64,000 bases of DNA, taken from Paramacrobiotus metropolitanus (Eukaryota > Tardigrada > Eutardigrada > Parachela > Macrobiotidae). The notes beneath the pieces are model-generated. The model was not told the origin of the DNA, ran no database searches, and saw nothing but the letters and a program-made list of their open reading frames with translations. The stretch is taken from positions 310,001-374,000 of the forward strand of contig NW_026570231.1 in the NCBI RefSeq assembly GCF_019649055.1, given 5' to 3'. Within the stretch, counting starts at the first letter, position 1. Each line of letters begins with the position of its first letter. Both the position numbers and the translations under genes were made by a program. Shown one piece after another: positions 14,746 through 28,228 of the stretch.

Positions 14746-15676
14746 TAAGGAAGACAAATTAACTGTAATCGGTTCTTGCTTGCTTTATTGAGAAGCCTGG
14801 CCCGTCAACGGGCACTTTCACGAATACCATGGAATTTGCTAAGGCTCTCTAGTTAGAGTGCTACACAAGAGGGTATCTTCAGAATTACTTACGATCACAT
14901 AGCATGAGCAGACTGTTACAACACCATAATTGATGACAATTTTAGTATTTCCTGCTCACAGGAACCTATTCTGCTATAAAGAAGATAACAAAAGCAGCCA
15001 CGGCCGATGGAAAATTTAAAAAAATCTGATAAATTTCGTTTGTCGAAATAAAACAGGAAGGACCCAGAGCAACGAGCAATTTACTGAATTCACAATGGCA
15101 AAAGGCTAAAAGCTGTCCAAACGCAAACACAAACACTCGTTGGAAAAGCGTCGCTGACGTCAGTGCAAGTTGTTAAGTGCTAAATGGAGAGAGGGCTGGG
15201 TAAATGCAAGACGGTGACCTTCGGTACTCACCTTCTTTCGGAAGCTTTTAAATAAAACGAGAAGCAACAAAAAATAAAAGAAAATCAAAAATGGCAAGTC
15301 AAAAACGGAATGCAGTATTTTGATTATTAATTAATTCCAGTTTTGTTACCAAAGCGGTTCCCTTAAAAGCCACCGTTCATTTGGGGACGCTGCGCGGAGC
15401 GCTGGCGATGAGTAACGCACAAAAGCAGGCTCTGTCGTAGACCTTGTACGCATCATGCGGGCATACGGAATTCGGAGATTTTTTACTTTGTGTCTTTGAT
15501 CTTTTTGGTCTTATCCTTTTTCTAACTGTTTCATAATTTCTGCCAGTTTCTCCCACGCAAGTGAAACTTACAAGTCTTTTATTTGATAACCCACTAAACT
15601 GCTGCTGTTTTTTTGTTGAGACTTGAGATGGTAACGACTCAATTGTGAGAGGACGATTTGCCAGGAAACACAACAA
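14746..15676. promoter_or_regulatory. Divergent region between NKAP and KAT6-like 1
   Basis: These 931 bases should carry the NKAP promoter (minus) and the 5' flank of the first KAT6-like gene (plus). An antisense open frame (15377-15886, minus) runs across the KAT6-like 1 first exon but has no recognisable protein features, and I treat it as chance. Confidence 0.4.
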
Positions 15677-18600
15677 ATGGACAAACGGCTGGAGATCAGT
15701 GAGATCATCTGGCCTGACTGCCTCGAGTCTTCTACATCTTCCATCCCTTTTAATCATATTAGCCATTCGCCACAGATAGTCCCGATACCTCGTATGCGCA
15801 ATAAAAAAGGGGAAGTGTCTGGAAAGGTTGATATGAAAACTTATTCGGATACCAAGGGTGAGTCCTGCATAGTGTTTGTCGATCACAATGAAATGAATTT
15901 GGCTGAGGCCTCCTGATTTGTTATTGTCCTTCTCTGTCTTATAACGCTAACATTGGTTTTCCGGTTGGGTAGCAGCGATTGTGCTAAGCATTGCTCGAAA
16001 GAGAGATTTGTTAACTCGATTGCGCACTTGCAGTTGTTAAAGATGTTCAGGCTGGACTTGTTGTGTCATCCTCGCGAACCGAAAGGTATAACAATCTTTT
16101 CTGCTACTGACTGCTAACAGATTTCTCTGTCGCTTGTTCGCTGGTTGCAGCTAATTGTGTAGTCTGATAAATTAACTTGAATGTTTACCGAGTAACCCAA
16201 TTGTACAAGTGTAGTCGAGAAAGATATCAGTAAACGACGGATTATAGGTACGGGTCATTGTAAAGGTGAAACACTGACAACGACCAGAAACATGCAAAAG
16301 CGTTTAATTAAGGTTTATCCTGGTGTACCGGTGACATACATACCGTAACATACGCTTCGTGTTTTCGTAGCTCTGATAGTCTGGGGTCAACTCGGATATT
16401 GGGAATTTTTTTCTCTATGATTCGCTGAAGATCCGATAAACTTTTATACTGTTGAACAGGTCATCTCGTCGTGAAGTGGATGGGTTGAATGATGCGCTTA
16501 GCCAGTTCTACACACCGCTTGGTCCGCGACGGAAGCGTCGCCCGGGAGGATATTTGGCGCTCTCGCTGGGACTGGGCAGTCCTGAGCACCACACAGGATA
16601 TTTTGAAGAAATTCACCAAAAGTTGCCGCCAGATCATCCGCTCGATGGGCAAACCACCTCGCCAAGATTACCTCAGGAATTACGAACGAAGTCCAGGAAC
16701 ACGTCGCGCAAGTTCAAAGCCAAGATTAAGGAAGAAACTGGGGCGTTCATAAAGAAAGAAACGGAACTGGACTTGGACAAGCCCGGTATATGCTTTGAAT
16801 GTAGTAATTGTTGACAATATAGAACGGATAAGAATAGACTTATGCTGTTGAGCCGATTTTTATACTGCAAATAATTCACACGTTTATTTATCTTTTCTGA
16901 ATTCTGATAATAGCATAATGAGTATTGTTTGTCGTTTGCAGAATTGCACAGTACGAGCGTGAAAATCAGTTCATTACCCGAAAGGATTTATTGTACTTGG
17001 TCATTGTAGTTTCAGATGAATCCACATCGGATGTCCAGAAAGGAACTATCCTTTTCCAGTGTCTTACAAATGATTTGGAGGAAACTGTAGCTCGCGTCGA
17101 AGAGGAAGCAGATTTTGTAAGAAATAATTGGACTTTGCGTATGCTTATGTTTTACCATAATCTCATTGCATCTTCATTAGTGTTGTGATATCCGTTAAAG
17201 TGCTTGTCTTGTTTCAGGCAGTTACGACGACGAGCGATATACCTTCGGTCTCGATTTTGCCTCCGGTCCCGGCCACCAGAAGTCCTGCTAAATCTTTTGG
17301 CCCGGACGAATTAGCGAAGTAAGCCATACTGCAAATGACACTGAATGTCTGTAATCTCGCCGGTATTGCATGCCGAAGTCAAATCAAAAAGTCCCGGTAG
17401 GAGTGCAGGGAATTTAAAATGCAAAACCTTTAGCGTAACACATAATGCTGTATTTTGATTTTCTATTATGCGCCCTTAAAAATGCCGCCCTTTTTCAACA
17501 CCGAAAAGTCGAATTGGTTTCTTGAAAACGTCTTGAGCTTCACCCGAAACCGGATGGGACAAAAATTAAGAGTAGACGTTGCTTTTGGTATTAGATGGTT
17601 ATTGGTAGTACCCGTATAGTTTCTAATTGCGGAATATAGTTCGAGTGGTTCTAGTCTCGTGTACAAATCTTCTTGTCCTTTGCGTTAGTTACCCGGCTGC
17701 AGGGCACGGTGTACTTTGTATCAAGAAACTTCCTGCTAAAATCTGAATGCATGCCATAGCATCGGAATAATACGATGAATTTGAACTTTTTTCAACTTCT
17801 GCATTAGCTTAAAAATTTGGAAACTTAGTGAGAATTCCTGTGAAAATCGTGTTGCCAGTAGTTGCACGACTTCATATGACTTTTTTGCCAGGGGCGGTCA
17901 GAAATTCGATAAATTTATGATGGACGCCGCGTGCCTTCGTCTTACTACTACGGATTATCCTACTATCCCTGCAGGTTGGTAACATTGGAAGCAATTCCAT
18001 ATACTACAGCTGACATTTGGTGATGGCGTCAGTTATTGTGTCATCGTCAACTGTAACTTCATATATGAGTACATACGCATTTGTCCCAGACTCTACGGTG
18101 CTTATTGATGATGTGTTGGAAACCCTATTCGCATGCTGATACTAACTGGTTTCAGTCTCTGCATTCATGGCGCCGATGTTTTATCCACCTTATCGGTTTG
18201 GCCGCATGGAGCAACCCAACCAGGGTTCTACGGGGGAGCCTCTCAATAACGGCGGGCAACCTTGGATTTCTACCACTGCCGGGAATCAGGAACCGCCACG
18301 AACGACTGGAAGTGGCTTGATAGATCCGATACCGAACACTTCCATCATCTGTCAACCGAGCAAGCATATGAATATCATTGCTCCGCCTCCGTATTTCGCC
18401 ATTGGAGCAGGGAGGCAGTGCGCCCTGCCTCCCGCTTCGTCATTTCTGCCGAAATGTCCTGCGACTCCGACATGGATGTCACCCGTGAAATGTCCACCGA
18501 GTGTGCTGCAGATATCTACGAACTATCCTGCGAAGATGGAGGGTTACTGCTTCGTGGATAATTACTATATGGAAAATGCCGGGGCTGTTCAAAGACCAGT

Positions 18601-18712
18601 AATCATTGAAGACACTTTTGGCTTGAATGCCGGTTCTGAACCCAGTGAATATACCGAACTAATGCCACGCGCGAAAAGTTCGTGTGAAGGAAACAGGGAA
18701 TATGCGAACTAA
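15677..18712 (+). CDS. KAT6-like paralogue 1, MYST domain lost, proline-rich C-terminus
   Basis: Six exons (15677-15857, 16477-16785, 17016-17116, 17218-17318, 17892-17974, 18156-18712) join in phase into a 443-residue frame. Residues 1-230 are paralogous to the next gene: ESSTSS in exon 1, [21 protein letters not shown] in exon 2, NDLEETVARVEEEAD in exon 3 and KSFGPDELAK in exon 4, with identical intron phases. The DGL-FYTP-RRKR block resembles the segment before the MYST domain of KAT6A/MOZ (DGLTHFFTPS). Where copy 2 continues into the zinc finger and acetyltransferase, this gene instead encodes a short unrelated exon and a Pro/Asn/Gly-rich tail (MFYPPYRFGRMEQ, APPPYFAIGAG). So it cannot be an acetyltransferase. 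Two sumoylation-type motifs (IKEE, IKKE) lie in exon 2. Function is unknown; a scaffold or competitor role is speculation. The exon 2 acceptor (GTGAAG) is weak and was chosen by phase. Confidence 0.7.
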
Positions 18713-20462
18713 CTTAAATATGGACCTGCCGACGGACCGGTTTTTTGGGGAAATTTGAGTATCTGCAACCTGTTAATGGGAAGCGTATGCGAGGATTTAA
18801 TTTTTCTTGTCTGCGCGTCAGTGATTTCCATTAATTTCTTCTGTATGATATTTCTTTCGTAGCATTTCTGGATGGCGGTTAACTTTAGTTAATATTTAGT
18901 TTGTACTTCAAGTAGCATATATACGAGGAATTCTGGATTTTAATTCCCAAGGCATTTAGGTTTTATGTCTGTTAAACTCTTAATTTCTATCTATCCCACA
19001 ATTTTATTCGGGTAGGTTTCGTCCGTTTCGGTATCGCGCAGTTCACTGTTAGTGCTGTCTGTACGGTGACCACATACAACTTCCTCAGTTTGGTTGTTGC
19101 ATTTACCGTTGGATGTGTATTGTTTTGTTTGTCGAATGGTGTAAATTTCGGTGCAAGAAACAGTGAACATGCATATCCATACAATAGTACATATTCTATA
19201 AAGAACCGGGCTGGAATTCACAAATCAACATATTATTACTTATCTAAATTGTTCAAGTAATTAATTATAGCTCTTTGCATAGAAGTATGTCTATTGTACC
19301 GTAAATCTATACAAGTATTTACAGATACTGTATGACTATTCACTGCTCACCGGTCAGTAGAGGACCTAGCGGTAGTATCAAAGATCTGGTAGTATGATGT
19401 GCTTATGGTTAGCATGGGATGTGTCCTGTGTGGACACTAGCCTCAGTAGCCTGTGAAGTCCACTTCCGTTACCGCGGGTTCCGCCGCAGCCCAGGCCGAA
19501 GACAATTAAGAAAACCAGACTATACGCGTATCTCAGGGCAGATACATTTCTGCTCCACTAGCTTTTGAAACCCTCGGGCCATGGGGAAAGTCGGCTTCAG
19601 CCTTGGTGAGGAAAATCGGGAAGCGGCTACAACAGGACACATGCGAACGGTGGACTTCACTCACCCACTCTGATTTCTGCGCCAACGCCTATCGCAACGG
19701 GGCAATGTGGCTCCCGTACTCGGGACCATGCATGGATGGAATGGAAAATTTAAAAGAAATAAGATTGTTGTAACTTACTCTGTTTTGTTGCGAAGTTTAA
19801 TTGGTGTGACTGGTTTGTGCTAATAAAGACTACTCGGTAGTATGATTACCTACATACGGTACTCTGTCTGCTCGTATTATCGTTTCGTTTGATAATAAAC
19901 GATATATTACAAAATTTGGTCTCATAGTCGTCTATAAATGTTCTTGCCCTTTGCAAGGACAGAATAATTACACGCTTTAATACTGCTTTATTTAGAACTG
20001 GGAACGTAAAAAAACTATAGAACAGGACAGTCAACAGTTAACAGGTATCACTGTTTACAATGAAAGTTGAAATCTTATTAAGTAATCCTTAATCTATGTA
20101 CTACGGCTACAAACCCACAAGTAACAAGGGCCGCTGCGTGAGCGGTAGGCTGTCACGCACAAAAGCTGGTCCGGTATGCACAACATAGATCAAGCGGGCA
20201 CGAAGAAGTACTCGCACGATAAGAGCGCACACTGCACGGCGCTGTACGCCATGCTGCAGCCTGCAAGTTTGGAATTCAACTTCTTTCAAATCTAGATTCT
20301 AGCAATAAGTTTCTAGATTTCTTGAGTTTTGACTTGAACAATAAAACTGTTGTTTTATATTTTTTGTACAAATTTTTATAGAAACATGTGTATTTCACGA
20401 AATTATCATCCCTAAAAGCTGGATAGTCTTGTGAAACTGTATCCTTAGCGCACAGCGATGGA
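18713..20462. other. Intergenic spacer between KAT6-like 1 and KAT6-like 2
   Basis: This 1.75-kb stretch holds the 3' flank of copy 1, a broken reverse-transcriptase fragment (19500-19740, listed separately) and the promoter side of copy 2. I found no other coding exon. Confidence 0.5.
19500..19740 (+). mobile_element. Degenerate reverse-transcriptase C-terminal fragment (retrotransposon relic)
   Basis: One frame reads APLAFETLGPWGKSASALVR followed by KIGKRLQQDT. This matches the conserved tail of many LINE-type pol proteins (PVAVETLGPWG...GRR). After a frame change of one base the next frame reads FLRQRLSQRGNVAPVLGTM, which matches the final family motif (FLRQRLSLAIQRGNAASVLGT). A stop (TAA) precedes the first block in its frame. 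The two halves are therefore in different frames and the copy is dead. I see neither the catalytic RT domain nor target-site duplications, so only the 3' end survives. Confidence 0.8.
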
Positions 20463-23400
20463 ATGACACATCGTCAACAACAAATGATGGACTCGACAAA
20501 TACAAATCATGGGTTCGAAGTGGTCTGTCCTGGATCAGTGGAGTCCTCGACATCTTCCACGTCGTTCGACTTTGATTATCTGGCATCCGTACATAGCGCT
20601 GCTCCTGGCACCGATACTGCAGGAAATGTGGACCCGAATGCAGATGCAAATCGTAGCGGTAAGTCGCAAGTCTTTAGGATCTCACCGTGCCCAAGGAATT
20701 TAGCTCCTGCAGTCGCATGTGACGGCATGTCGGAATTGGTTTTCGTCGATGGTGTAACGAGAAATGCCTTTTTTCAGTTGAAAATTGTAGTGTTGGAACC
20801 GTTATGGTCACTACGCCAGCTGAAAAGATCGGAAGGTAACTGTGAATAAATTGCTGTCTTTACTGGCTTATGAACAAAGGCATATGCTGTAATCTGATAA
20901 GCGGGAATGCGACATCAGTGTTATCCCCTGCGTACCTGGCGCAGTGTTACGTAGTTTTCTGCGCCAAATTGAACTCGATCATCGAACTCTGCTGCCAGTA
21001 TTGTACAAGGTCAGGGTGTTTGTCAAGATGGTCGCTGCTGGTCCACACCGGCCAGAGGCCCAGACGTAAGACGTACATTTTCGCAAATGAAGGGTGTGAC
21101 CAAGAATGCCTAAAATGGCCTGACTCTTGATGTTTCTTATTTGGCATTTTCTTTTGAATCGAATAGTACGGGACAGTGATAATAAGGAACATCAGGCATC
21201 AGGTCATTTTGCGCATTCCTGGTCATATCCCTACCGAGATATGAGATATCCCTTTTTGCTTATTGATGGTCATACAGTCAGCCACATACGAGCCACAGCC
21301 TCGTATTTATATTATTCATGCGTATTTCGGATTGGTGGTAGTGTCCCATATTCCGTGATATTTGTATGTACATACATGACAATAAATCCTGGGTTGCTGC
21401 CTTTTTCATCTGCCATGTTTACTATAGAAAACAAGTAGTTGTTATTCGTATTCTAAATTTTACACTATTTTATGTAGAAACTGATATTGCTTATTGGGCA
21501 ACTTTGATATTGTTAATCGATTAGTTTTTCTTGAAGCGTGATAAAATCCTTGGCAATTCTTGTGTTATAGTCTGGTTACAGAATTATGAAATATGCTCTC
21601 GTTTCTATGGTTTTATAAAGTACTGTACGTAAATTGTTTTTTTTATTGAAATTAGATACGATGTTAAGCAAGTAGGCACAAGACGCACGTCGCACAACCG
21701 CGACGTGCGTCTTGTGCCTACTTGCTTAACATTTCCTTTTACAACAGCTACGGTAGGCTTAATCTCTGCTTTCTCTCTTTATTGTGTATCGCATAATCTT
21801 TAAATTTTAACTTAATATCGTTTTTATGTAGTGTAAAGTTCGAACCACAGAGTTTGAAATTAATAACACGGGTGCGCTCGATCTGAATAATTGTATTAAG
21901 TACTTAAGATACGACAGATAGTCATAATCATGGCGAATTAGCACAATATAATTATTGCGAAGCTCGCACACAAACACCTTAAAAGTGCTGTAAAGACCTA
22001 TGCACAACTTGAAGTGCATTTTGTTTTCAAGATTTACTTTTCGAAATTTACATCCGCTCATAGTTTGCGACTTCGCGCGTTTATGAACGTTTGTTATCGG
22101 AAGTCAAGGGTTCCTCTTACTTATAGAACACTTTAAAATTTGAATATGTTGGGAGGTTTCTTATTAAACCAAAATCGCACTTTAATTTAAATTCGCTTTG
22201 AGAGTGCGCGGCAGACTGGGCAGAGGCACTAATATAATTCTGGCGAAACTCGAAAGTGCACAAGTTGCAACAAGAGTAGCTTCTTAAAACGATTTAGATT
22301 TTCGCTTGCCATTTTTCATTATCAGCAAAATTCTGTTCTTCAATTATCCGTTGGATCGATTTACACTTTACAATGACCTTCCTTGATATGTAAAAATGTG
22401 GTCATGAAATAGGTCACATCGGGATTTAGATGGTTTGACTGATGCCCTCACGCGATTCTACACCCCGCTTGGGCCTCGACGAAAGCGCGGCCGCGGAGAG
22501 TATTTGGATTTATCGTTGGGACGTACGTGTTCTGGGCCTTCTGCGAAATTTCCAGATTTAATGCCCAAACATGCGGCCTTAGCATCGACGGATGGCCGCA
22601 GCAAGACGCCTGTAACGACCTTACCTGATCCGGAATTTCGAACTCCTCGTAACTTGGCTATCAGCAGCGAAAAAGATATCGAATCGAAATTTGATGATCA
22701 CGATGGTAAGTAAATATTTGCGAAGGTTTGAGATATTTCTGTCAGTCAAGAATTTTAATCAGTTGCATGTTGGTTGAGTTCTTTTTGGTAAAACTGTATG
22801 TCAAAACCCTGTAGCAAGTGAAAGTAGTGCATAGTTGAACCAGTTTTCTATAATTTCGCAAACAGAAGCCATTATGCATATAGTTGAATTATTTCAGGGT
22901 TATTTGACTCGTCTTACAAACTACGGTCCAATGATCGAAAGCGGAAATTTGTCGTGCCGGATAGTATCCCAAAAGACTTGGAGGATATCTTCGTTTCTGC
23001 TCGAATCGAAGCAGCTTCGGTAAGAATTCAGTTGACTTCTAGTGAGCGTCTCCTAAGAGACCATTTTTGTGATTGCTTTGCAGAGCTTACAAATTGTGGA
23101 TGAATCGTTCACGGGACATCTGCCTCCTTGCGTACGATTAGGTAGACATGTTATCCGAACCCTTTGTAAATCGTTCTATCCGGAGGAATTCGCAAAGTAA
23201 GCAGCAGGGGCGGGTAACTGGCAACACACCGGCTGGTAGCGACGTGAAAGTAATTAATAAATCTCGCTAAATTTAGGCGTAATTCGAAACTATGGCAGGA
23301 ATATTTAATTACTGAATTTTAATGGTCAGTGGAGGGAGGATGTTTTTTAAATCGTAACAAAGTTTGTGTGACTTATGGTGTGCCACTGTGCAGTGCACCC

Positions 23401-25058
23401 TCGTATGTTGCAGATAATAAAGTTTTATTTTTTCCCATCTTACAAGTGACACTTTTCAGCTGTATTTTTGCATGACTTTGACTTTTGTTTGCTCTTTTTT
23501 TTCTGTATTACTGATTTGATTTTTCGTTCAGTTGCTGATATTATTTATATAATTTCATGACTTATTTTATTTTTTGTTTCAGGTGCGAATGTCTATATAT
23601 TTGTGAATTTTGTTTGACATACATGAAGACCCTGGATTTGCTGAAAACGCACTATGTATGATATACTGTAATATAATATTGCATTATCTTACAAAATCGT
23701 TTATGCTTTTATGTTTCAAACGTAATGTGTGTGTGATAATGATCTGTGTAGTGATAATAATAAGAAGTTACACTCGAATATCAAGTTTGCAGTTTAAAAT
23801 CGTGGTTGTAGCAGTTTGCTGCTTACGTTGAATATTGTTGCCCTGAATATTCATTTTAAGGAACGCTGTGCTTGGCACTGTCCACCCGGAAAGGAAATTT
23901 ATAAGGATGCCGTGGAAATCTCGCTGAATCATTGCCAGTCAACATCAGTGCATGATTTAATTGTTTATGAGATCGATGGAGCGAAATATACCTATTACTG
24001 CCAGAATCTTTGCCGTTTGAGCACGTTGTATTTGGACACCAAAGTGGTGGTATATGATGTCGAAGGATTTATCTTTTATGTCTTATGCTATCGCGATGAA
24101 CTAGGTGACCATATTGTGGGCTACTTTTCAAAGGTTAGAGGCTTACCCTAGCGTAGATTTTGTTAAGTACTTATGAGAAGCAAATATTTTAATGCAAATT
24201 TCTTCTTACCGGTTAGGACAAATCGTTTGGGAAAAAATGCAATAATCTCAGCTGCTTCTTGATTTTGCCACCCTATCAGAAGAATGGATTTGGTCGTTTC
24301 TTGGTTGGCTTCAGTAAGTTATTGTTTCATGTTTCAAAGCTCTTAAAGGTTTTCCAAAGACTGGTTTACTCTGTACATGCTGGATGTGTGCTTAACATAT
24401 GGTAGTTACCACCTGGTTATTTTATTTCATCTGCCTGTCCTACTCTACAGTAGGTTTTGTGCTGCAGGCTATTTGCTGTCCAGAGTCCACAACATGCCTG
24501 GCACTCCGGAACGACCGTTGTCGACTTCTGGCGAAAAGACGTACCGTGCGTACTGGCGGTCAGTACTCGTGGAATATTTGTGCGAGGTCCAAAGAAACAG
24601 CGACATTGTTTCCCTTAAAAGTAGGTACCATCATAACATTATCGTTTAATGCCGTATTGTAACTAAGGTATCTATCTTTATTTCGATTCGTAGTTATGAC
24701 AGTATTAACCAGACACTAATGCTACAAAATTAGGTACTGCCGAAACATCCGATACCACCATTAGCTTTATTGTAAATCGTAAATGTGTTGTTAATTGTCT
24801 TGTTACGTGTAACTTATAGTGATTTCCGAAGAGACAGGAATGTGGGCACAGGATATTGCCGGCATGCTGCAGGAACTGAAGTGCCTTCGCTACAATGGGC
24901 GATCGAGAAAATGGGAACTGCGTTTGCACCCGGAAACTTACATTGCTTTTGAAGAAGAATCGGCATCGCGATCTTATCAGTATTTGCCAGTACGCTCAGA
25001 AAAACTGCAAACTACGCCATTTCGTCAGTTTTTGAATATTCCACCGGAAAATTTGTAA
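20463..25058 (+). CDS. KAT6-like paralogue 2, MYST-family histone acetyltransferase
   Basis: A MYST-domain lysine acetyltransferase related to KAT6 (MOZ/MORF/Enok). Nine exons (20463-20658, 22430-22705, 22898-23019, 23084-23196, 23583-23655, 23861-24133, 24217-24313, 24468-24620, 24820-25058) join in phase to 513 residues. N-terminal landmarks are ESSTSS and [20 protein letters not shown]. The C2HC finger is intact (C243, C246, H259, C263). The core shows YYCQNLCRL, the LYLDTK lysine equivalent to the autoacetylation site, [16 protein letters not shown], catalytic C364 in [10 protein letters not shown], the acetyl-CoA loop QKNGFG and base E398 in TPERPLS. KAT6 proteins carry N-terminal H15 and double PHD domains; none is visible here, so chromatin targeting must differ. 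Intron 1 (1.8 kb) contains two fold-back repeats. An extra open stretch follows exon 1 but is intronic. Confidence 0.88.
21091..21232. repeat. Imperfect fold-back repeat in intron 1 of KAT6-like 2
   Basis: The segment 21091-21142 is largely the reverse complement of 21180-21232, with roughly four in five positions matching by eye over about 52 bases and a loop near 37 bases. The shared core runs through GACCAAGAATGCC on the left arm and GCGCATTCCTGGTC on the right. It looks like a small MITE-type or hairpin element; no target duplication was identified. Confidence 0.7.
21661..21732. repeat. Perfect 33-bp inverted repeat (hairpin) in intron 1 of KAT6-like 2
   Basis: Left arm 21661-21693 begins ATGTTAAGCAAGTAGG and ends GACGCACGTCGC. 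Right arm 21700-21732 is its exact reverse complement, with a 6-base loop (ACAACC). The pairing stops abruptly at both outer ends. It could be a recent palindromic insertion, a hairpin-RNA source (longer and more perfect than a typical animal pre-miRNA) or an assembly artefact. Confidence 0.9.
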
Positions 25059-26771
25059 AGTTTTGGTTAGTTTTGAGTTTTTCAGTAGGCAGTGTACAGC
25101 AGTATGTTGTGCAATTTACTATATATATATATAACTGTTTTTAAATTTGATCTTACCAGTGTAAAACACTAACAGAAGAATCTTCAGAGCCTTTCTATTG
25201 CTGTACTCTGTATTTGATGAAGTGTACAGTTGTGGTCACGATCTGTTGTTTAGCTGACTGTTCCAAAACACTATCCGATATAAAATTTTACGCAAGAGGG
25301 ACGCAAGTAGTTGGTATTCGTATCATTATACGTAAAGTCCGGTGATCCTAACTGCAGTCCGTATGGACATGTTTCAAAGTGTTGATCTTAGAAAAGTTTG
25401 TTTGAAGCTTGAGCTCATGAACCTTGCAATCGACTTTATTTTATCCGCTAATTTTGAAAGTTTTGAACGTTTTTTCGAGGTGAAATTGTTCTACCGTTAG
25501 ATTACTTATAAGTTGCTTTAATTAACTGGAGAAACACCTAAAAAACTATTAGCAGCCAGCAACTCTTGAGAACCATAACCGGTAATCGATATTTCGCGCC
25601 GAGCATTAGTGAATTTGGCGATGTACCTTTAGCATACGATTTGTGAATCCGTATCATACACTAGGGTCTAGGAATAATATAAATCGGAGCGTTTAAAATT
25701 TGAACACATCGCTACCGCGACGTTCTGGGTGGGAAAAGTTCAAACAGGTGGAGAAACTGACAATGAGAACAGAAATCGTTTATAGATACTTCGGGCAGGT
25801 TATCCGTAATAGTCGGTTAGGCTGATACTTGATACCTGGCTAGTTTCGGATCGACATCTGAGTATGCTTCAAGCCTTCAACACGCCGCCTCCGTGCTCGG
25901 GACAATGGAGGGAGCGGCAGCATTTATAAATGAAATTTTGTTGTTTTGAATTATTGTTTTGAGACAGTGATGTTACCGCATTTTGTGAAATAAAACCACA
26001 TAAGCGTTTATTTAGTTCAGAACTGAACTACTCGATAGTAACGAATTGATAATAATGTGACAGCATCATCTGCGGCACAGAGGCATAATATAAGGTCACG
26101 GAATATCGCAACAAGAGCAACAACGCCCAGCTGTCTTTTGTGTCTTTTAGGTACTAATATGTATTTCTGAACCGTAGGGCAGTCATACGGAACTTAAACA
26201 AGAAAAAATCGAACACGAAACTGGTCAAGTACCAGTAGCCAAATTGCAGCAACCAAAAATCCAGTGATGAAACGCTGTAGTCTGTTTCGTACCACCGATG
26301 CGATGGTAAATTACTCGTGTGGTTCTGCACGCTAATGCTGTGTGATAGTCACTGCAGCTTTTGCAGCCTTTTAGTTTTCAGTTTTACTACGTAGCTGGCA
26401 CTTCACCAAAATTTAATTATTTTATTATGTTAGTGTGGGCATGGACGCCAGCGGGACAATGGTAATTTGTAACCTGTCATTGCCGTGAAAATTTAAATGC
26501 ATCAAGTTGAGCGGTACCGGTACGAACATCATCATTCACCGAGCGCGCGATTATACAAGTACTCGTATGATTAGTCAGAGAATATCTATATTTCAGTTTG
26601 AGCTGGAATCTTCGGTACTTTTTCTTTTATCTACATTCTGGAATCTGAATGCCTGCTGTAGTTGATGGACTCGCAGCATTAGCCAAATCAAAGCATACTG
26701 ATGCAATGTTTATGATTTATATTTTATCATCACGAAAGTGAGTGTCTCGGACTGTCTCTAAATTTTCTACT
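25059..26771. other. Intergenic spacer between KAT6-like 2 and KAT6-like 3
   Basis: This 1.7-kb stretch has no convincing exon. I searched the plus strand for copies of the ESSTSS, DGL-FYTP and P-DLE blocks seen in copies 1 and 2 and found none, so copy 3 either starts near 26772 or uses diverged upstream exons. A short AT dinucleotide run lies near 25121. Confidence 0.4.
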
Positions 26772-28228
26772 ATGCAGGCCTCGCAGAAACATTGTGTCGC
26801 GATGGACCGAACTGCCAGTTCCCTCCTCAGCGTGCAGCTTGGTCGCCATTCCTTCGATGCCGCGTACTCGTCGCCGTTCGTAGTGGACTTTGCGTAAGGA
26901 CTGGAATACTGACGTTTCACATGTTTAGCGAGAACCTGTTATCCTGCTGGCGCTGGGCCGCTGATGGCATTTTCACTGAAACACCACGCTAATGTGAGCC
27001 CTTACTTGCAGTTATCCGTGGCTGTACGTGTGCGAATACTGCCTGGATTACACTTCGCATTACGACGACTGGGACGATCACTGTGTGAGTAGCTAGGCTG
27101 CACTGGGCTTCGGCGTAATCATTTTTTCACGCTTTCCACCGCGTTGCAGAACGGGAAATCCCCCTGCACCGTGGTTACGCCGCCCGGGAGGCTGGTGTAC
27201 CTGGACGAGATCAGCCGCGGACAGCATCCGTACGGCCGCAGCGAAACGCTGGTGGTGTACGAAGTGAACGGCTCACTGTACCCCTATTACTGCCAGAAAT
27301 TGTCCCTCCTGGGCAAACTCTTCCTGGAGAATAAACTGAAAACCTACGATGTGGACGACTTGGTGTTCTATGTGCTGTGCGTGAGGGGATGCTCAGGGGA
27401 CCACATCGTCGGGTACTTCTCGAAGGTAAGGCATGCGTTGGCTTCTGATTAAGCTGAACGTAATCCGTGGTTGCGTTCTTCAACAGCTGAAGGAAGTACA
27501 AACCATTACCTACAATCTCCACAAGTTGGTCATCTTTCCTCCTTTCCGGCGCCGTGGTTACGGGAGTTTTCTTATTGGATTCAGTAAGTGTAGCATCCTA
27601 ATGGTTTGTACTTTGAAGCATAATTTAAATTCTTCGTTGAATTTTTTTTGTGGGCGTGGGCATGCGCCGGTGGTTATAAATTTGTGCCGTACTTAGCCGT
27701 CGTTTTGGCTTCTGAAAATCAGTGTGAGAGATTATAGTTTTGCTTATGGTTAGGTTACTTTCTTTCGCGACTGGACGGATCTCCCGGACGTCCAGAACTT
27801 CCATTATCTGTCGCCGGGCAAGAAGCGTACAGAGTGTACTGCCGAAAGGCAATATTCGCTTACATGCGGGCGCGCGACCCTAACAGTCCTGTTGATCTCA
27901 CGATCGAAGGTATGTAGATTTTATCTTAAGGCGACTGCTGACTCATCCGTGGAGAATTCGTTACGATTTGAAACGTGGAACTTCTTTCGGCATCGTTGCA
28001 GAGATCTGTAGTTGGACCGGAATCTGCGGCGACGATGTTAGTCAGGTGTTTCTTTGGCTGAAATCGTTTGCGTTCGATGCGGAGCAGGGAAAGTATGTGC
28101 CACGAATGATTGCCAAAGATTACAATCGTTTTGCTAAACTTATGCGCGATTCTACTCCGTTGATCTCTGTTTTGACCGACAAGTGTGTCCAACTTCCGTT
28201 GTCGCAAACGAAGAAGTTAGCCGGCTGA
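26772..28228 (+). CDS. KAT6-like paralogue 3, MYST domain with catalytic Cys replaced
   Basis: Exons 26772-26893, 27012-27084, 27150-27425, 27487-27583, 27754-27909 and 28002-28228 give 316 residues. Exon sizes of 73 and 97 bases equal those of copy 2, confirming common descent. The protein is nearly only the MYST core: LGRHSFDAAYSSPF, CEYCLDY, YYCQKLSLLGKLFLENK, YDVDDLVFYVL, GYFSK, the acetyl-CoA loop RRRGYG and E204 in RPELPLS. At the catalytic Cys position it has Lys (K170, NLHKLVIFPP). The zinc finger is odd: C48, C51 and H64 are in place, but the last Cys is at 65 or 71 instead of three residues after His. The start is uncertain: ATG 26772 is in frame, but TATGCAG just after it could be an acceptor (26778, phase 0) for an unseen upstream exon. 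Confidence 0.8.

Follow-up and report, generated by a model that had tools for sequence, protein, structure and literature searches.

A 64,000-nucleotide stretch of the tardigrade Paramacrobiotus metropolitanus genome (contig NW_026570231.1, positions 310,001 to 374,000 of the forward strand; hereafter the window, in whose own numbering positions are given) carries a real array of three units related to the acetyltransferase gene KAT6 (MOZ), located at 15677-28228 on the + strand. With a probability that we put at roughly two in three (0.68), this array goes back to a partial DNA copy of the KAT6 gene, from which it expanded in tandem long ago. The units follow each other head-to-tail, as the initial annotation proposed, and the gene models, which were assembled manually on the basis of homology, phase and splice sites and were checked by script, show GT-AG boundaries in 20 of 20 introns, consistent phases and open frames. 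In these models, copy 1 (15677-18712) has 7 exons and encodes 466 amino acids (aa) without a MYST domain, copy 2 (20463-25058; 10 exons, 538 aa) combines a linker, a zinc finger and MYST, and copy 3 (26772-28228; 6 exons, 316 aa) holds MYST nearly alone. Genome searches covered 169.8 Mb in 533 contigs, and C-numbers below denote contigs of this genome. A CAHS protein used as a query matched 20 places, the best at 3e-69, which identifies the genome as that of a tardigrade and, since CAHS proteins mark eutardigrades, most likely of a eutardigrade.

Shared structure of the three copies

Copies 1 and 2 have exons 1-5 in common, with out-phases of 1, 2, 1, 0 and 2 identical in both and with lengths of 181/52/326/101/101 nucleotides (nt) in copy 1 and 196/58/293/122/113 nt in copy 2. 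When the linker exon of copy 2 was used as a query against the genome, up to an E value of 10, it matched copy 1 at E 4.9e-10 and one further place at E 0.28, and therefore the likeness between the two linkers is not due to chance. Over 37 codons of the linker, copies 1 and 2 show 70% aa identity (dN 0.20, dS 1.19). The linker landmark, initially ascribed to all three copies, is present in copies 1 and 2 only, whereas no linker was detectable in copy 3, either by the genome search with the copy 2 linker exon or by profiles of the homologous exons; at the site where the others have F[YG]P[ED]E[FL]AK, copy 3 reads SSPFVVDFA.

In regard to the MYST part, exons of 73 and 97 bases are common to copies 2 and 3, with equal phases. 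The Pfam search found MOZ_SAS and zf-MYST in copy 2 (7.8e-62 and 6.1e-14) and in copy 3 (1.4e-45 and 4.9e-9), over the cut-off, and returned no match of any kind for copy 1, which agrees with its earlier description as the copy without MYST. A search for MYST remnants between the copies, with the exons masked, gave a best E of 0.41, which is noise.

Probable KAT6 origin of the array

A full KAT6 gene lies elsewhere in the genome, at C3:2.389 Mb, with KAT6A as its best PDB match (287.8 bits vs 266.8 bits for KAT7). In the MYST-domain tree of 9 rows, from which a divergent KAT6-like gene on C14 (L004) was left out for its long branch, KAT6 of C3, copy 2 and copy 3 form a group with support of 100/99, and the addition of human KAT6A gives 95/92. 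Copies 2 and 3 are thus not scattered over unrelated subfamilies, and the KAT6/MOZ derivation suggested at first is supported for them. The tree agrees with structural characters: behind the PPG..IY stretch of MYST, KAT6 of C3, copy 2 and copy 3 carry 10-14 inserted residues that the 7 other rows of 10 do not have. The MYST parts of these three genes also agree in their intron places and phases, and each includes a 73-nt exon; the MYST exon lengths are 113/73/261/94/156 in KAT6 of C3, 113/73/273/97/153 in copy 2 and 116/73/276/97/156 in copy 3 if its first exon is taken to begin at the acceptor 26778. Equal intron places and phases indicate a copy made at the DNA level and not a retrocopy. The exon order, phases and sizes shared between copies do exist as first described, but KAT6 of C3 agrees with the array in its MYST intron places, in their phases and in the 73-base exon, so that these features are inherited and not specific to the array.

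An origin from KAT7 instead of KAT6 was also considered. The whole-genome MOZ_SAS search gave 14 exon matches, all of which were assigned to 6 genes with none left for KAT7; KAT7/HBO1 was thus not found among the MOZ_SAS matches, although weak matches could escape such a search and the absence is unproven. KAT7 carries zf-C2HC, and this domain was matched at 4 places, all of them on C127, a contig without any MYST match. An array descended from KAT7 would fit these observations, but forcing copies 2 and 3 to group with human KAT7 was rejected (p-AU 0.0003), and the linker motif of the array, DGL..FYTP, resembles DGLTKYFTP and DGLTKFFT of KAT6 on C3, which makes such an origin extremely improbable. 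EPL1, searched to gauge the partners of KAT7, gave 2 matches, both enhancer-of-polycomb-like by eye and one of them within repeats, and says nothing on KAT7.

Several results weigh against the KAT6 expansion as we read it. Open frames were a selection criterion of the hand-made models. In the trees, the KAT6 split without copy 3 receives 92/92 (unstarred), the branch of copy 3 is very long (3.9), and a sister relationship of copies 2 and 3 reaches 71/56, which is unsupported, while placing KAT6 of C3 with copy 2 or with copy 3 is not rejected (p-AU 0.18 and 0.17, respectively). Once L004 is included in a tree of 10 rows, the five rows on the KAT6 side are held together by 90/93 (unstarred) and KAT6 of C3, copies 2 and 3 and L004 by 78/99; KAT6 of C3, copy 2 and copy 3 are no longer exclusive, and forcing them together is not rejected (p-AU 0.31). 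In a plain search, moreover, the MYST core of copy 2 scores higher with human KAT8 (161.6 bits) than with KAT6A (147.8 bits). By the 9-row tree, a KAT6 origin of copies 2 and 3 is nevertheless supported.

Judging from sequence divergence, the duplications are old. Synonymous sites are saturated among copies 2, 3 and KAT6 of C3, and copies 1 and 2 differ over 231 codons with a dS of 1.42 and a dN of 0.71.

Exons and active site

The exons of the three models, all on the + strand, are as follows.

15677..15857, +: copy 1 exon 1, with start codon; ESSTSS motif common with copy 2, and a 36-nt direct repeat to copy 2 at 75%
16034..16085, +: copy 1 exon 2, 52 nt; phases 1 to 2, the same as in copy 2
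16460..16785, +: copy 1 exon 3, with the linker landmark (identity to copy 2 as given above)
17016..17116, +: copy 1 exon 4, from the model and a profile of homologous exons (copy 1 among them)
17218..17318, +: copy 1 exon 5, ending in SFGPDELAK directly before the expected zinc-finger start
17892..17974, +: copy 1 exon 6 (tentative), occupying the position of the zinc-finger exon; phase-compatible GT-AG only
18156..18712, +: copy 1 exon 7 (tentative), a tail rich in proline that ends in the stop; phase-compatible
20463..20658, +: copy 2 exon 1, with start codon
20778..20835, +: copy 2 exon 2, from the model
22413..22705, +: copy 2 exon 3, with the linker landmark; genome search and model
22898..23019, +: copy 2 exon 4, from the model
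23084..23196, +: copy 2 exon 5, 113 nt, equal in length in KAT6 of C3
23583..23655, +: copy 2 exon 6, zinc finger, 73 nt; zf-MYST match
23861..24133, +: copy 2 exon 7, MYST core with the presumed auto-acetylated lysine; MOZ_SAS match
24217..24313, +: copy 2 exon 8, active-site Cys and coenzyme A (CoA) loop, 97 nt; alignment
24468..24620, +: copy 2 exon 9, catalytic Glu (TPERPLS); alignment
24820..25058, +: copy 2 exon 10, C-terminal part and stop; from the model
26772..26893, +: copy 3 first exon, homologous to copy 2 exon 5; start at ATG 26772, or internal from the acceptor at 26778 (phase 0)
27012..27084, +: copy 3 zinc-finger exon, 73 nt; zf-MYST match
27150..27425, +: copy 3 MYST core exon, lysine kept; alignment
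27487..27583, +: copy 3 exon with active-site Cys changed to Lys and CoA loop RRRGYG, 97 nt; alignment
27754..27909, +: copy 3 exon retaining the catalytic Glu (GRPELPLS); alignment
28002..28228, +: copy 3 last exon with stop; from the model

Two other arrangements were rejected during modelling. An exon 4 of copy 1 starting at 16942 has stops in frame, while the acceptor at 17016 fits both phase and homology. Direct splicing of exon 1 to exon 3 breaks the frame in copies 1 and 2 (by eye), and the small exons at 16034 and 20778 repair both.

Conservation of the catalytic domain was judged against 75 positions invariant in seven MYST domains, four human and three from this genome, of which copy 2 keeps 59 (16 lost), copy 3 keeps 54 (21 lost) and L004 keeps 44. 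The zinc ligands C29, C32, H45 and C49 are kept in copies 2 and 3, with 3 extra residues between H and C in copy 3. C135, E169 and K93 (numbering of a 267-residue KAT6A segment) are the active-site cysteine, the catalytic glutamate and the auto-acetylated lysine. Both copies retain K93, G146 and G148 of the CoA loop, and E169, with GRPELPLS of copy 3 aligning gap-free to GSPEKPLS. The cysteine is kept in copy 2 and replaced by Lys in copy 3, which is the sole change among the three active-site residues of that copy. Copy 2 has linker, zinc finger, MYST and all three residues. Copy 3 is nearly MYST-only as initially described, but the residue that is changed is the active-site cysteine, with the catalytic Glu and the Lys left as they were.

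The role of the cysteine has been studied in Esa1. Its C304S and E338Q mutants are described as inactive (PMC9258546), whereas, according to a review (PMC4881052), a Cys mutant of full-length Esa1 in the piccolo NuA4 complex kept its activity. Published views on the cysteine requirement thus disagree, and going by its sequence copy 3 may or may not be active; the pseudo-enzyme suggested at first is a hypothesis, although on the mutant data we lean towards a handicapped catalysis. Copy 3, with Lys at the Cys site and with Glu and Lys kept, represents a natural test of this disputed role.

The tail of copy 1 and the possibility of decay

The weakest part of the models is the end of copy 1, and exons 6 and 7 are tentative. 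Their codon scores lie near 0 (0.011 and -0.008), which also tells against our reading of the array, whereas those of exons 1 and 3 in copies 1 and 2 range from 0.068 to 0.264. True shared exons can score equally low (-0.004 for copy 2 exon 8, -0.047 for copy 3 exons 4 and 5), and the score itself is weak, copy 2 having belonged to the training set. A 103-codon frame that overlaps exon 7 in another frame scores 0.09. The open frame of exon 7 is not decisive: among 2000 simulated stretches, 0.15% or 1.9%, according to the composition used, contained a stop-free run of this length, and copy 1 itself has an antisense run of 189 codons without stops. This antisense frame, opposite copy 1 exon 1 (15377-15946 of the window, - strand), is itself probably due to chance. 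Searched against the genome up to E 10, the copy 1 tail returned, besides its own locus, two weak hits (E 0.22 and 2.9), with no convincing relative. The idea that it is a remnant of the KAT6 C-terminal region was dropped, as no convincing match was found in the C3 locus or elsewhere in the genome.

Copies 1 and/or 3 could, in principle, be functionless, decaying remains. The number of invariant MYST positions lost in copy 3, higher than in copy 2 (21/75 and 16/75), its long branch and the weakly coding tail of copy 1 would all agree with decay. Frames are however open and splice sites canonical, within the limits of hand-made models, despite the saturated dS between copy 3 and KAT6 of C3 and the dS of 1.42 between copies 1 and 2. 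When neutral change of 0.2 per site was simulated 2000 times each, open frames were left in none of the copy 3 runs (0/2000) and in 0.85% of those with the copy 2 front. We therefore regard decay as very unlikely.

One locus or three genes

The start of copy 3 bears on the number of genes. The acceptor at 26778 (phase 0) sits where the acceptor of copy 2 exon 5 sits, and the candidate ATG at 26772 falls inside it. With a score of 8.31, this acceptor is reached by 1.3% of 718 other regional AGs and exceeds 22 of 30 model acceptors in a leave-one-out comparison, in which the scoring was built from the 30 model acceptors of this analysis with 26778 excluded. Because a strong acceptor is kept at the ancestral place and phase, copy 3 may be spliced to the front exons of copy 2, the exon 4 of which ends in the compatible phase 0. 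Furthermore, profiles of exons 3 and 4 were run over the 1.7 kb preceding copy 3 and found no relatives, the best E values of 0.42 and 0.55 being noise. These features would be explained by a single complex gene, in which the front exons of either or both of copies 1 and 2 are joined to one of two MYST cassettes, the Cys form of copy 2 or the Lys form of copy 3. A single alternatively spliced transcript was named in the initial annotation as a refutation of its own reading, and the strong acceptor at 26778 hints at it. Yet copy 3 could instead use an untranslated upstream exon and ATG 26802, or a short coding exon that went undetected, and the 1.7-kb gap is sufficient for a promoter. In addition, copy 1 exon 5 is without LGRHVI, which opens the MYST domain in copy 2, and joining it to the copy 2 zinc finger would probably give a damaged domain. 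In our judgement a single gene is unlikely, and its elaborated form is quite unlikely, namely a modular locus in which two KAT6-type linkers and two MYST cassettes (Cys and Lys) are alternatively spliced to give an enzyme, an altered form of it and a competitor that has no enzyme part. For copy 3 the sequence would thus allow either an untranslated first exon with ATG 26802, an overlooked coding exon, or borrowed front exons of copy 2.

Proposed origin and comparison with known genes

Returning to the tandem expansion, the following course seems plausible. A KAT6 segment reaching from the linker to the end of MYST would have been duplicated to this location without the winged-helix and Gln/Met-rich ends, followed by tandem duplication of the segment. 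Copy 1 would then have lost its MYST exons and acquired a new end, while copy 3 would have lost its linker and evolved fast. Copy 2 is most likely an active nuclear lysine acetyltransferase without a histone reader of its own, targeted via partners. Copy 3 would be a MYST protein that evolves fast and whose catalysis is perhaps changed or weak, and copy 1 a linker protein without enzymatic activity, which might compete for the partners of KAT6. That the expansion is strictly lineage-specific and that the three copies act as a regulatory trio, as first suggested, are hypotheses.

The KAT6 subfamily is characterized by an N-terminal winged helix and a double PHD finger, and full-length KAT6 by a Ser/Met- or Gln/Met-rich C-terminal region. 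The array shares zinc finger and MYST with KAT6A/KAT6B (MOZ/MORF) and with KAT6 of C3, and with the latter also intron places and phases, the insertion within MYST and a linker motif of the form DGL..F[YF]T. Unlike these genes, it includes a copy without MYST and a copy without the linker, and copies 2 and 3 end shortly past MYST, with the Ser/Met- or Gln/Met-rich region absent. Neither a winged helix nor a PHD finger was matched by Pfam in copies 1-3 at E 0.1, and a tblastn search of the window with a human KAT6A double finger gave a best E of 0.07. L004 has its MYST on the KAT6 side of the 10-row tree, as the array does, but differs in having PHD-like fingers and no MYST insertion.

KAT6 enzymes place histone marks in development. 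A genome that has a full KAT6 alongside shortened copies, one of them enzyme-free, would have separated the linker, catalytic and reader functions of KAT6 naturally. The array is a fairly ordinary old gene expansion. The annelid Dimorphilus gyrociliatus, with a small animal genome, also has extra MYST genes in the form of lineage-specific kat5 and kat8 duplicates, according to portions of the published study (PMC12153100); other subfamilies are involved there, and a MYST-less or tandem copy is unmentioned in those portions. Among the papers found on tardigrade MYST and histone acetyltransferases and on MYST duplications, titles and abstract openings mention no such array, and for tardigrade KAT6 no paper was found.

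Other MYST genes of the genome

Beyond the array, the MYST genes include KAT8 at C3:2.114 Mb (best PDB match KAT8) and KAT5 on C45 (100/98 with human KAT5). The MYST part of this KAT5 (C45:620809-621392, L002) shows a one-base frame break in a T run, probably an assembly error because the gene is expected to be essential, which advises caution with frame breaks in this assembly. At the KAT6 gene of C3 (2.38-2.40 Mb), a SAMD1_WH winged helix lies upstream (2.7e-12), accompanied by two DGLTK[YF]FT motifs and an end that looks rich in Gln/Met by eye. In 27 kb of this locus, a human KAT6A double PHD finger gave no hit below E 0.04, and C3 holds none of the 49 PHD matches in the genome. The same double finger matched L004 (C14:180 kb) by tblastn at 2e-7 and 4e-4, where a PHD match (7.6e-5) also points to PHD-like fingers. 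The parts of KAT6 thus seem to be split over two genes, with winged helix, MYST and Gln/Met-rich end on C3, and a double PHD-like finger and a divergent MYST on C14. An enhancer-of-polycomb-like gene fragment (by eye) beside repeated open frames at C47:585500-591500 (L010) is probably a duplicated remnant in a repeat region.

Surroundings of the array and minor observations

Upstream, the array is preceded by a wnt exon and the C-terminal exon of NKAP; on the downstream side, the exon at 29.7 kb has a match to the Rpb3/RpoA insert domain that falls slightly under the cut-off. AATAAA is present 14 times over 14.4 kb, near chance by a rough estimate, and poly(A) signals were therefore unused. 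An inverted repeat of 33 nt without mismatches, its arms separated by a loop of 6 nt, lies in intron 2 of copy 2 (window positions 21661-21732), and a genome search with it found no match other than its own locus.

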